From the NCBI GenBank assembly GCA_009746045.1, contig RPFO01000123.1, positions 712,318 through 776,317 on the forward strand: a stretch of 64,000 nt of DNA. The letters run 5' to 3'. The position numbers and the translations under genes are program-made. The number at the start of each line of letters is the position of its first letter. The stretch's first letter is position 1. Positions 13,601 to 40,600 of the stretch are shown here, one piece after another. This stretch comes from Mesostigma viride. Lineage: Eukaryota > Streptophyta > Mesostigmatophyceae > Mesostigmatales > Mesostigmataceae. A model generated the notes under the pieces. It was not told where the DNA came from and ran no database searches. It saw only the letters and a list, made by a program, of their open reading frames with translations.

Positions 13601-16600
13601 AAACAAAACCGGGCGGGGGAGGGTCGATCTTGGAGAAGGCACCCGGCTTGCCTGCACGTCAAGGAACACCGACATCGGGGAAAGACAACGCGCAACATGT
13701 CAGGTACATGAAGGTGCAGCCCACATGATACTTCCAGCAGGATTGACGACAGAGCTTGCACTGCACAGGAGCAGATTGACAATTGGTACTGCACTTATCA
13801 TACTTGTTGAATGGTGCTTGATGCCCAGGGAAAATGTACGCCGGCATCCCAAGCGATACCCCCAATGATCCTCAATGACGTTCAGCATTTATATTGACAG
13901 CATTAAAAACAAGGGGAGCCAGGACATAAAGAACCATGATTCTTGAAGTGTGCATCAGAAAGCTGACATGGCGGCCAAAGTCTTTTGTACCAGTCCCCAG
14001 AGGGTGCCCACGTGAGCGCTATGATAGCAGCGACAAACGCACGTACCTGGCACCACCGTGTAGTTGTAGGGGGACCCGTCAGAAAAGACGCCACCCGCTT
14101 GGATGGTGAGCGTATAGTTGCCGACAATCGGCGATAGAATCTGGAAGTTGTCACCACAGCAATGCAAACCTCCCCTCACCCCACAAAAGTTAGCAAAGGC
14201 GAATATAAGCGAAGGGTGGTTCCAGCATTTTCAAAAGCAGGCAACCCCTTGCATCCACCCAAGCCAGGGGACATGGTACCGTGAGCATTTTAAGAATCAC
14301 ACAACGGGGAATCACCCATGGAAACTGATAGTATCGTGAGGGCCAATTGCTCACCGACACGGTGTAGCTGCCATCCGAGTTCCTGGTGACATTTGCCAGC
14401 GTGAGGCCTGGCTGACCAGGTATCTGCACTTGGATGATCAGCTCGTTGGCGTCGTAGCTCCGGTCCTGTAGCCACGGCGTGTCGGCAATGACATGTAAGG
14501 CACCCACAAGGCCTCGTTAGTAGTCAGAAACATAGCATCATCAATTGGTTAACCAAACAGGCATCAGATGGACAAAGGAGCACAGTAGGCATGCGGCTGA
14601 ACCGGTAGTGCGACAGGGCTGCCTGTCCACCATGGTCAGTCACCCCATGCTGCAAGCAGCGAGCTGTTACTGAACACCGCGCTGAGACGGGCGGCGAAAA
14701 CTCAGACGCATGCACGCACGAGAGAATGAGGCTGCAGCACAACGGTTGACAGCAGACACTCGTTCCGCCTGTAAGTGCTAGGGATGGGGAGACATGAACA
14801 GGTCATTGAGGTGTTAAATGACTGCCTCCAAGGATTCGTGCGGCCCAGGTCATATGTGTCAAAGATGATCCCAAGAAGATAGAGAACAAAAAAAACCCAG
14901 CCCAGCACAACATGGGGGGCAGTGGGCACGCTTGTCCTCTCTAGCAGCACTCGTGTCAGCATCCACCAAGCTGCACCACTGCATGCCCCCCCCCCCCTGC
15001 CTCCCCTCCCGGCAGGGCACGCACCAGCGAGTCCACGATGTTGCCAAACTGGTCCACGCCGTACACGTGGAAGATGACCAGCCCCGCGGGGTACACGGGC
15101 AGCAGGTCGGTGATCGTGCGCGTGATGTCCATCTCGCCATGCACCACACGGAAGAAGCCGTCGCCACGTACGGGCGTGGCCGAGGTGGCCTCCACCACGA
15201 TTAGCTCGTAGGGGCCCGCTGCATCACAGTGGGGCATGAGGCAGGGGAAGGGACAGCAGCGGCCAGACGGCACATGGCAACGCCGATGATGGCAATACGC
15301 CATGTCAAGTACAGCGGCGCCGATTGCCACATGGGGCCACAAGACCAGGCATCTACGTAGGGATACACAATTCACTAATCAATATTGATAAACCAATCTA
15401 CGTGCAGCGTGCCTGATGCCAGCAGTTCATGCCTCGATCACTTCCCTAGCCATGCCTCCCATCCATGCAACTAACGCAGATAGCGTGCTAGCAGACAACG
15501 CGCGTACCAATGATGAGCACTGGAACATCCGGAATGGCGTTTCGGTCGGCGCGTCCCGCTGACGTAGCGGTGGGCAGTGCCAGCAGGCTTCCGTTGGGCG
15601 TGCGCAGCGAGATGGTGAAGTTAAGGTCCATCATCTCTGCGCAAGCACAGGGACACAAACGGTGCGCCGGGGCGGGGATGGGCCGTGGGCCAGTAAGGTT
15701 TTCAGCAGGAATGGCTACCTGCCTATGGGCATTGGCGATTCACTGTTTCTCACGATCCAGGGTACAGATCATCATATTATGCAGGAGCACTGCGATAGGC
15801 GTGCTGCTACTCATCATGGGCATCCCTTTGCCAGAAACAAATACGTTTCAAAGCTTCAGACAAGCACACACGTTCTCTGCACAATGTCCAGCCGCCAAGC
15901 GTGCCATGCCGGCAACGCACCTGCTGGGTCGAACGTGGGGAATGCCTCGCGCCACTGCTCCAGGTTGAAGCGAATGAGCCACTCGGTCTTGGTGCCCGCG
16001 ACCGCCTCTCGCCGCTCGTTCAGGCCTGACACCGGCACGAGCTCGTAGAAGCTGGCCGCGATGGCCGCTGTATGCATGGGGGCAAGGAGTCACAATGGCC
16101 AAAGACCATGGCACAGAGCCGTAAACGACGCAACTTGCGGGATTATATCAATAATCAACCATAAGTGGCAGGGAGGTAATTAACCACATGTGGCAGGGGA
16201 GTAATGCGACCCATGTCACAAGGAACGTACGTGACAGCCTGTCGATGACGATGGTGTACGTGTTGCGCCCAACGCCGTCCTCCGCCACCACCACCACGCG
16301 GAAGACATTGCGCCCCGCGTCCAGAGTGACGTTCTGCGGGACGCCGCTTTCCAGCGCTATGGTGGCCCCACTGTGCAGCTGCAGCACCGCACTGGCGCAG
16401 TCGGCAAAGGTGACGTTGATCAGCGCCGCGGTCACACCAATGGGCACAAACGTGGAGTAGCGGAAGATCTCGCGCTCAAACGCAGGCGTGAGAGCCAGGG
16501 GGAGCTCATCCAGGGTGGTTACGTTGATGGATGCCAGTGTGTAGCACTCGATGGGGAGGAAGGACGGCGACAGTGTGAACACGCGGAACGGGTCAAAGGT

Positions 16601-37600: not shown

Positions 37601-40600
37601 GGCACGCGCTGCGTGACGTCACAAGCAGGTCAGGCGCTCCCGGCCGGTTCTGCACCGCCTTGACGGTGATGCCCGCGGCTGCATCCGGCGCGCCCAGCAC
37701 GGCCACGTTGAAGAGCTCGCTGCTGTTGGCGTATGCGTAGATGCCACGCACCGCGGGCAGGGACACCTGGATCTGGCCTACCAGCTGGGCGCCGCCACGC
37801 GCGTCGTTGATCTGTGCGCGCTTGTCGCGCACAAACTTGAAGTTGCCCGTATTGACCAGGTCGCGCACAATGCAAGCAACGGCCCCCGGGATCACCCCCT
37901 CGCGGGCATCGTCCCGCAACCGGAACGCCGCGGTGGCAATTTCCACGCGGGTGCCGATGGCGCGCGTCTGGTTCTGGCCCGGCGCGATGCCGCTGGTGAC
38001 AGCGGACAGCCTCCCGCCCTGCATGTTGGACACGGGCGCGTTGTAGAGCGCACTGGCGTCCACGCCCACGAAGGTCAGGAGCGACGCGTCAAAGAAGAGG
38101 TCGAAGCGCCAGATGTTGAGCACGTACCCGGCCGTGTGTGCGTACAGCTTGACAATAAAGTCGTCCCCGGGGAAGCGGGGGCTCTGCGGGATCTCCACGA
38201 CCACGCCGCCCGAGGACAGCTCGTCATGCAGCGGCCGCTTCTGCAGCGTGACAGCGGTCGGCGGCGACTGCGGCGCGACGGAGGACCCGAGATAGGTCAC
38301 CGTGATGATCACGCTGGCCTGTGCCGACCCCGAGGGCAGGAACCACCCCTGCGGCAACACCGCGTCGCAGTCACCTGTGCCGGATGAAGTGTCAGGCCGC
38401 GGGCAGTCAAACATGGCCACCTCGCCAGTGACCTCGCTGCGCACGGTCATGCGCACAAAAAGGCCGACTGCATCCACCTGTGCACGTCCGACGGCGTCGC
38501 GCAGCTGGTAGTGGGCGGACAGCGAGGCCGCATCGTGGTAGAGCACGGGCGTGCGCACGAGCATGCGCACGCTGGCGGCCCGATTGCGCTCAGTGGTGAA
38601 CACGTCGCTGGGCGGCAACAACAGCACCACGTCATCCACACCCAGGTGGGCCTCCACGCTGCCGTTGGAGCTGGGCGGCAGGTTGTTGAACAGCGTGAAG
38701 TCCTGCTGGAAGATGCCCAGCTTAGCGTCGGGCTGCACCAGGTCGCCCGTGGGGAAGCCGGGGCTGCCGGGGGACAGCATCAGCACGGGGATGGCCTCGC
38801 GCGTCAGCTTGATCTCCACATTGGGCGGCTCGCAAAACTCGATGCCCGTGGGAGGGGGGGGGCTGCTGGGGATGGGGGGTGAGGGGCTGGGTGGGATGGC
38901 GGGGGGAGGGGTGGCCGGCGGGGTGCGTGGGGGGGCTAGGTGGCTTGGGGGCCTTGGGCGACTTGGGTGACCTTGGAGACCTGGGGGGCTTGGGGGCGCG
39001 GGGAGACCGTGGCGACTTGGGGGGACGGGGAGGCTTGCTGGGTGACCTAGGGGGCAATGGAGGGGAAGGAGGGGGGGGAGGGGAGGAGGGGAGGAGGGGG
39101 AGGAGGGGGAGGAGGGGGGGGAGGGGGGGGAGCAGGTGGTGCTGGTGGCGTGGGTGGCAGCGGGGGTGGGGGAGGCGGTGATGGTGGCGTGGGTGGCAGC
39201 GGGGGTGGGGGAGGCGGTGCAGGTGGCATGGGAGGCAATGGGGGTTCAGGAGGTGGGGCAGGTGGCAGCGGGGGGGGCGGCATGGGTGGTTCGGGGAAGG
39301 TCTCCAACAAAAAGGAGGACCATGGCTTTTTAGCGAACTGCGAGGGAGATGGGGGTGATGGGGGTGATGGGGGTAGGGGGGGGGGCGGCGTTGGTGGTGG
39401 AGGTGCGGGCGGCATTGGTGGCAGCGGTGGTGAGGGCGCGGGTGGTTCAGGGAAGGTCTCTAACAGAAAGGACCACGGCCTCTTGAACTCATATGCTGGG
39501 GGGGTAGGCGGAGGCGGGGCCAATGGAAGCTCCGGCGGGGGTGGTGCAGGTGCTAATGGGGGCGATGCAAGCATTGTGGGCGGGGCAGGGGCCAGCATGG
39601 GGGGCAACTTGGGCACCAGGGGTGGGCGGGTCTTTAACAGCGGCGGAATGCGCACAGGGGGTAACAAGGGTGGATGTGAGCGGGGTGGTGACGGCGCAAG
39701 CGGGTGTATGGGCGGCGGTGCGGGGGCAAGCGGGACAGCAGGAGGGGGAGGGGGGGCCAGCGGTGGATCTGGCCGCTTGGGTTTGGGATGAGGGCTATGA
39801 GGCAGCACGAGTGAAGGGGGCGGGCTTGGGGCGAGGTAGACGGTTTCAGAGGGTCGCGGAGGTGCAGGTGCCAATGGGGTTGACATGGGAGGGCTGGGCG
39901 CCAAGAATGGGTCAGGCATGGGCGGAGGTGGGGCGGGCGGGAGGGGGGACCAGTGGGGCGGGCTTGGGGCAAGGTAGGTCGGCGGGGGCGGCGCGGGCGC
40001 TGTTGGCAGATGCGGGTATAATTTGGAGTGCACGGTGGTAGACATGGATGGCAGCATGGGTGGTGCGGGAGCCAATGGAAGCGGGAGAGGAATGTGGGGG
40101 AGCACACGTGCAGTCGTGACGTTTCTGGAAGAAGGTAGGGTCGAGATGACAGGGGGCGGCGGTGTCAACCGGATACTGGTGGGTGGGCTGGGGGGAGGGA
40201 GGGGAGAGGGAGGGGAGGGAAGAGCAACCTGCGGTGGAATGGGGGTGACAACTGGGACTTTACTGGGATCTGCGGGGGTGCAGGGGGTAGGTGCGGTGAC
40301 GGCGGCAGGCTGGGCGCGGGAGGCAAGGGGCGATAGGGAGATGGGGCGGGTGCCAGGGGTAACTCGGGGCGGCGGGTATAAAAGGATGGTGAGGGAGCGA
40401 GGGTGATGGAAGGCATGGGTGGCGGCGCTAGCGGCTGGGAGGGTGGGGGCGCGGGCGCAAGCGGGGGCTGGGCGGACATGGATGGGCTGGGAGCGAGTGG
40501 GGGCGTCAGGGGTGGGGGCGGTGCGGGCGGCAAGGGAAGCTCTAGGGTGTGCACGTGCAGGGGGGCCGCCTGCACCCTCAACGGGTACTTGATGGTGAAC

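Follow-up and report, generated by a model that had tools for sequence, protein, structure and literature searches.

The window, as the whole stretch of DNA analysed is called here, comprises 64,000 nt of contig RPFO01000123.1 of the green alga Mesostigma viride, and all coordinates are counted within it. Its minus strand carries, from 16511 to 38819, five modules (M1 to M5) which are arranged head-to-tail and each of which consists of 1,398-1,412 codons (Table 1). The order within a module is N-terminal region, cohesin 1, TMEM132 fourth immunoglobulin (Ig) domain, further Ig-like domains, cohesin 2, dockerin and beta-sandwich, the module being a TMEM132-type ectodomain extended by a cohesin, a dockerin and a beta-sandwich. 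Five tandem modules of ~1,400 residues, in which cohesin-like strands are followed by a two-loop dockerin, had been proposed in a first-pass annotation of this DNA; its coordinates hold, and the motifs were retrieved from all five modules. Its account of the module content was correct with regard to cohesin 2 and the dockerin, and overlooked cohesin 1 and the TMEM132 Ig domains. The array is real and far from chance. A repeat search recovered five-copy families with a start-to-start spacing of 4.2-4.9 kb, and the ratio of nonsynonymous to synonymous divergence (Ka/Ks) is below 1 for every domain and pair where it is computable, which reflects purifying selection.

Modules M2 to M5 are encoded by a single open frame of 6,180 codons, while M1 is located in a different frame, within the neighbouring open reading frame (ORF). 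The frame changes in the proline-rich linker between M1 and M2, which is encoded by a C-rich minisatellite with units of 43-45 bases (minus strand) and six C-runs of 9-12. An intron at this position was considered and rejected: the sole minus-strand AG in 34640-34262 is found at 34621, upstream of the C-rich repeat, and a GT-AG intron cannot end inside the repeat because the latter contains no acceptor AG. The likelier cause is an insertion or deletion in a C-run, introduced by the assembly or real. As the frame break separates M1 from M2-M5, the presence of five modules in one chain, as originally claimed, is probable for the complete set, with the open frame itself showing four.

The TMEM132 fourth Ig domain (PF16070) was detected above the Pfam cut-off (27 bits) in each of the five modules. 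The sixth Ig domain gave a Pfam match below cut-off in four of the five; the fifth was absent from the Pfam matches listed for the window modules, and was detected below cut-off in P0004 and P0006, two of the relatives described below. No NCBIfam family was assigned to any of four proteins searched, no Rfam match was obtained within the window, and a PDB search with M1 as single sequence returned one match, a glyoxalase (E 0.095), outside the cohesin and dockerin parts.

Dockerin type I F-hand calcium loops are characterized by D at position 1, N, D or S at position 3, D or N at position 5 and D at position 12. In the window, loop 1 (GDT, N or D, GDCEATAKD) and loop 2 (MDPSQNGEIDGVD) each occur once per module, and both are intact in all five modules. 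The Pfam Dockerin_1 model scored 16.8-19.5 bits in the five modules by hmmscan, below its cut-off of 22.9, and in a search of the genome matched only these five modules, all of them over cut-off (M2 only jointly with its neighbours). When a profile of a three-domain piece was compared with the PDB (E<=10), 29 sequences were retrieved, 21 of which matched the dockerin stretch (best E 2.2e-4) and 8 the cohesin stretch. Several of the former are named by enzyme alone, two simply as ‘Serine protease’; all 21 are probably dockerins. Structure prediction, which had been suggested as a check, places three helices (residues 24-35, 49-55 and 65-79) around both loops of the M3 dockerin, with a predicted local distance difference test (pLDDT) score of ~37-49, a confidence at which the F-hand helix pair is tentative. 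The identification as a putative dockerin rests on sequence.

For cohesin 2, in which LLAWQV strands occur once per module in all five modules, the same check gave a clearer answer, a cohesin beta-sandwich fold being predicted by the structure model. The Pfam Cohesin model (cut-off 24.1) found no match at E<=1 in any of the five window modules. The model did match related modules elsewhere: P0006 above cut-off (25.8 bits), and two paralogous modules of the same genome, on contigs C557 (26.2 bits and over cut-off by genome search, 22.2 by hmmscan) and C167 (22.3 bits, below cut-off). The Pfam scores, the PDB profile matches and the predicted cohesin fold together uphold the central claim of the annotation, namely that cohesin-like and dockerin-like domains occur together five times at a eukaryotic locus.

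Cohesin 1 contains the motif FPGD..xVKLY once per module in all five modules, as well as LNIWRFELLYD strands, and is located directly N-terminal to the fourth Ig domain, which is the position reported for the cohesin in TMEM132 proteins (PMC6030884). A profile comparison between cohesin 1 and cohesin 2 (hhalign) yielded a probability of 93 and a P of 3.1e-7, and at the cohesin 1 site of the C1997 paralogue the Pfam Cohesin model scored 16.5 bits, below cut-off. We take cohesin 1, with reservation, as a putative TMEM132-type cohesin. In M3 cohesin 2 starts 798 residues after the start of cohesin 1, and in the window modules cohesin 2 is separated from the dockerin by ~35 variable residues.

The dockerins are 92-99% identical between modules. 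In the seven pairs involving M1 or M2 the dockerin is the most conserved domain (92-96% identical, Ka/Ks 0.08-0.14), the other domains being 42-76% identical, cohesin 2 65-76% and the short linker 37-43%; pairwise comparison of M3, M4 and M5 gives 96-99% identity for the dockerins, with other domains reaching 79-99%. For sites with the same residue, the proportion encoded by different codons, determined for nine pairs (M4-M5 being omitted), was 0.09-0.20 in the three intervals inside the dockerin, rose to 0.31 and 0.33 at the dockerin edges and was 0.27-0.66 in non-overlapping intervals. Likewise, the M3-M4 pair combines a dockerin Ks of 0.04 with values of 0.64 for cohesin 2 and 1.15 for the C-terminal beta-sandwich (CTD) on its two sides. 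The pattern resembles that left by gene conversion, with the dockerin as its centre among M1-M4 and with help from purifying selection; codon constraint could also have lowered synonymous divergence in the dockerin, and the two causes are not separable here. The M4-M5 pair is an exception, and counts against the reading preferred below, in that synonymous change is least in cohesin 2 (Ks 0), the dockerin having a Ks of 0.17. M4 and M5 are mosaic, near-identical from the Ig5 region through the dockerin but with fourth Ig domains and CTDs that differ strongly, and look like the outcome of a recent partial duplication or conversion.

Searches of the alga’s own genome (440 Mb, 2,243 contigs) placed the module at eight other loci, on contigs C1, C1557 (two loci), C1215, C167, C1913, C1997 and C557 (partial). 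C1 carries two copies in tandem, and C847 and C1177 contain module pieces whose cohesin 2-dockerin part was set aside because it duplicates that of the second C1 copy. The distance between the starts of the two cohesins is 799-803 residues in the five separate loci where both are readable in one frame (the first C1 copy, both C1557 loci, C1215 and C167). Cohesin 2 and the dockerin occur together in 13 of the 14 modules counted as separate (five in the window, two each on C1 and C1557, and one each on C1215, C167, C1913, C1997 and C557, without C847 and C1177), a count containing few independent cases because the dockerins of C1557, C1215 and C167 are nearly identical. The divergent C557 paralogue (L025) has an acidic GDDGDD run after cohesin 2. 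Dockerin sequence was recognized by a custom profile in six of the eight paralogue ORFs scanned (including L027, L006 and L018). The module on C1913 (L019) is followed by filamin repeats and GEX2_N in the same layout as in the window, those on C167 (L018) and C1997 (L020) adjoin TSP_1 and EGF_laminin matches, both below cut-off, and paralogue modules also adjoin a Cadherin-like domain above cut-off. As a separate observation from this assembly, contigs C602, C900 and C996 carry five stop-free rbcL copies, those on C602, and likewise those on C900, facing opposite ways as if in a plastid inverted repeat. Among solved structures, the best PDB match of the encoded RbcL is 1gk8, from Chlamydomonas, in line with a green alga.

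Searches for further homologues recovered three proteins among 7,992 candidates scored and one among 7,997; a further search, based on an alignment with a long proline-rich tail, retrieved 0 of 7,986 and is uninformative because it missed its own members too. Cohesin 2 and dockerin are adjacent in the relatives P0004-P0006. A prokaryotic or viral origin of the cohesin-dockerin pair was considered and set aside: no relative was confirmed from 22 and 370 pattern matches in genome contigs, from 48 pattern matches in IMG/VR or among phages, these searches being able to detect fairly close relatives only.

Judged by strand, order and kind of domain, the array appears to lie within a much larger minus-strand gene, whose putative further exons are included in Table 1. 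The ORF at 4603-11889, with its filamin stretches, also matches GEX2_N (PF23616) at 79.2 bits and, likewise above cut-off, Invasin_D3. More exon-like ORFs are found past the 3’ end of the window (L009), one of which (L009:3267-4604), a putative part of the gene, encodes a single strong hydrophobic stretch (mean Kyte-Doolittle hydropathy 2.83) followed by a charged tail. The gene product probably has one transmembrane helix, encoded 3’ of the window, and the surroundings of the array read as those of a membrane receptor-like protein. Self-assembly into fibres, an option raised in the first-pass annotation, is not supported. A GPS/GAIN or polycystin part following the REJ domain was looked for and rejected, as the four ORFs 3’ of the window contain no Pfam family above cut-off. 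Among the Pfam matches listed for the scanned ORFs, a set made up of the longer ones, there is no catalytic, carbohydrate-binding or SLH family. Two simple repeats were also recorded in the window, a long AG microsatellite (3931-4172) at the edge of a filamin-coding ORF, and an array with an 8-base period, to which the repeat search assigned 54 register matches and which runs from 54924 at least as far as 55369.

Table 1 Features of the module array and of its surroundings, in window coordinates.
Feature	Position	Strand	Remarks
Module M1	34605-38819	-	1405 codons; within ORF 34254-38819
M1 cohesin 1 (TMEM132-type, taken with reservation)	37755-38210	-	Just before TMEM132 fourth Ig
M1 TMEM132 fourth Ig	37449-37742	-	PF16070, 32.9 bits
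M1 cohesin 2	35370-35798	-	AWQV strands
M1 putative dockerin	35028-35258	-	Two F-hand-type loops
M1/M2 Pro-rich linker	34262-34640	-	C-rich minisatellite; frame changes here
Module M2	30056-34261	-	1402 codons; within ORF 16148-34690
M2 cohesin 1	33188-33643	-	
M2 TMEM132 fourth Ig	32885-33175	-	PF16070, 49.9 bits
M2 cohesin 2	30818-31246	-	
M2 putative dockerin	30482-30712	-	
Module M3	25181-29374	-	1398 codons
M3 cohesin 1	28313-28768	-	
M3 TMEM132 fourth Ig	28013-28300	-	PF16070, 34.2 bits
M3 cohesin 2	25946-26374	-	
M3 putative dockerin	25610-25840	-	
M3 C-terminal beta-sandwich (CTD)	25205-25609	-	After dockerin; homologous stretch aligned in other four modules
Module M4	20771-24979	-	1403 codons
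M4 cohesin 1	23903-24358	-	
M4 TMEM132 fourth Ig	23603-23890	-	PF16070, 34 bits
M4 cohesin 2	21536-21964	-	
M4 putative dockerin	21203-21433	-	
Module M5	16511-20746	-	1412 codons
M5 cohesin 1	19670-20125	-	
M5 TMEM132 fourth Ig	19370-19654	-	PF16070, 34.1 bits
M5 cohesin 2	17303-17731	-	
M5 putative dockerin	16970-17200	-	
Cadherin-like beta sandwich after M5	16238-16495	-	PF12733, 41.2 bits
Upstream exon-like ORF	40646-42715	-	TIG 21.7 bits (cut-off 20.9), Cadherin-like stretches (two); putatively same gene
Downstream ORF	4603-11889	-	12 Filamin stretches and GEX2_N Ig-like domain; putatively same gene
Downstream ORF	3486-4250	-	Filamin repeat; putatively same gene
Downstream ORF	1862-3226	-	Filamin 26.8 bits (cut-off 26.9), weak GEX2_N; putatively same gene
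Downstream ORF	410-1666	-	REJ domain 34.6 bits (cut-off 25); putatively same gene

Considering these domains and their arrangement, the reading we prefer, at about even chances, is that of calcium-dependent, multivalent adhesion or cross-linking through cohesin-dockerin docking by a giant surface protein of this green alga. The locus would encode the outer, adhesive part of a giant cell-surface protein that probably spans the membrane once; calcium would allow each dockerin to fold and then to dock onto a cohesin, most likely that of a neighbouring module or that of another molecule of the same family, the paralogues carrying the same cohesin-dockerin pair. The array would then act as a multivalent, calcium-dependent stalk for adhesion or cross-linking. 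With five nearly identical dockerins in the array, a given partner cohesin could be bound by any one of them, which would provide avidity and binding independent of register. Their uniformity suggests one specificity shared across the modules, rather than five private clasps.

Several observations weigh against docking at a membrane-anchored stalk, and some of them favour a different reading, unlikely though far from negligible in our estimate, in which dockerin and cohesin are calcium-stiffened building blocks of a stalk, co-inherited and no longer binding each other. Loop 2 starts with N-P-T-x-T, rather than with D, in seven of the eight dockerins outside the window, and is degenerate in those modules (the sole loop 2 starting DPTKDG outside the window is that of C1997, which continues into another ORF); in the first of the two C1 copies, loop 1 is interrupted by an insertion; and C557 has a cohesin 2 and no dockerin found within 8.5 kb. 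Such a spacer would also suit the locus as a whole, which abounds in further spacer domains, filamin repeats and proline-rich linkers among them. In addition, Pfam Dockerin_1 was not listed for any of the eight paralogue ORFs scanned and was listed for only one of three relatives (P0006, below cut-off), the dockerin model is of low confidence, with fold-search rows covering residues 79-225 only, and the PDB matches of cohesin 1 are weak, three of nine being scaffoldin cohesins (E 0.065-0.094) alongside equally scoring capsid proteins. The putative transmembrane ORF, moreover, is located 3-4 kb past the nearest exon-like ORFs and yielded no domain, its placement in the gene being provisional. 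The spacer reading does not, however, explain why the dockerin is conserved in the seven M1 or M2 pairs to a degree that exceeds the need of a pure spacer, or why cohesin 2 and dockerin remain together in all but one of the 14 modules.

The short distance between cohesin 2 and the dockerin in the window modules, and their adjacency in P0004-P0006 and in the paralogues, would also suit an intramolecular clasp, in which the dockerin docks on the preceding cohesin 2, or alternatively on the cohesin 1 found in the same module, and holds the module shut until calcium or pulling force opens it. We consider such a clasp to be clearly unlikely: near-uniform dockerins facing cohesin 2 domains that differ as much as they do in the M1 and M2 pairs fit a shared partner better, and the 408-residue model (predicted template modelling score, pTM, 0.38) is too poor to show how the domains are arranged. 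The filamin stretches and GEX2_N of the region, repeated behind the C1913 module, raise the alternative that the protein is an ordinary glycoprotein of the cell wall or of gamete adhesion, specific to this lineage and of the filamin type known from GEX2 and FUS1, these two being reported as filamin-like gamete adhesion proteins (PMC9187738), with the TMEM132-like array as a passenger without any special cohesin-dockerin role. This we judge improbable, since paralogues place the module beside other domains and it appears to be retained for its own sake. A duplication of one module by the assembly to give M4 and M5 could account for the 300-base stretches which they share at 100% identity and for their cohesin 2 Ks of 0, and is nevertheless very improbable indeed: their CTDs are 58% identical with a Ks of 1.04 and their fourth Ig domains have a Ks of 0.83, values not expected of an assembly copy, and M1-M3 are clearly distinct in any case. 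The preferred reading, calcium-dependent docking between modules or molecules, would be simple to test experimentally by calcium-dependent binding, as the domains are small and separable. Were a eukaryotic adhesive cohesin-dockerin pair to exist, it would be of mechanical interest given the strength of the bacterial contacts, which are among the strongest receptor-ligand pairs reported (PMC6030884).

The dockerin attached to the TMEM132-type unit, both in this green alga and in P0006, is a direct candidate for the ancestral partner of the TMEM132 cohesin. With regard to the latter, it is described as unclear whether binding is as strong as in bacteria, partly for the reason that vertebrates have no detectable dockerin (PMC6030884). 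The same source dates the TMEM132 architecture to early holozoans, an origin that is called into question by a dockerin-bearing TMEM132-type unit in an alga. A bolder scenario, speculative and in our judgement unlikely, is that of a eukaryotic cohesin-dockerin adhesion system older than the plant/animal split: the ancestral TMEM132 unit would have had two cohesins, one on either side of its Ig domains, followed by a dockerin, animals would have lost the dockerin and retained an orphan cohesin, and the alga would have amplified the unit into a five-unit, calcium-switched and self-complementary array.

Compared with known systems, the module is a real, unusual variant of a known architecture, and the description of the locus as an undescribed system was too strong, its frame being that of TMEM132 and the coherins (PMC6030884); in the titles and abstract openings of open-licence literature, nothing was found on a TMEM132-type unit in an alga, on a fusion of this unit with a second cohesin and a dockerin, or on its tandem amplification. 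Animal TMEM132 proteins, which are located at the cell surface and thought to be adhesive, have a cohesin, then the fourth Ig domain and then more Ig-like domains, an order that the module appears to follow (PMC6030884), and work on TMEM132D and a worm homologue is reported to support a role in linking adhesion to actin (PMC7962252). The module differs from these in its occurrence in a green alga, its tandem arrangement and its second cohesin and dockerin. Coherins, lefftyrins and hedglings, which are cadherins of choanoflagellates and sponges, are described as larger adhesion proteins that incorporate the complete set of five TMEM132 domains in unchanged order (PMC6030884), whereas the pieces scanned here gave no cadherin match other than Cadherin-like PF12733 and, below cut-off, a weak one to Cadherin_5. 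P0006, a protein of 1,860 residues from a public assembly, carries the TMEM132 fourth Ig domain, a Pfam Cohesin match that exceeds the cut-off and a Dockerin_1 match that does not, arranged as in the module, and close to its C-terminus a long hydrophobic run; in contrast to the array it contains a single module, 25% identical to M1, and a weak TNFR-like cysteine-rich stretch. GEX2 and FUS1 share with the region their filamin-like Ig repeats, Chlamydomonas FUS1 being reported to have a filamin-like domain, and GEX2_N is present here; the portion of the source available mentions no TMEM132, cohesin or dockerin part in them (PMC9187738), which in the present locus forms the largest block. Finally, cellulosomal scaffoldins resemble the array in that a dockerin can share its chain with several cohesins (PMC3413522), and cohesin and dockerin models match the array. 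The notion that cellulosomal cohesins and dockerins always reside on different partners, on which the first-pass annotation had built, is contradicted by some Acetivibrio scaffoldins that carry both on one chain (PMC3413522); the array is distinguished from scaffoldins by one dockerin per module, by its eukaryotic host and by the lack, in the scanned ORFs, of the family types named above.

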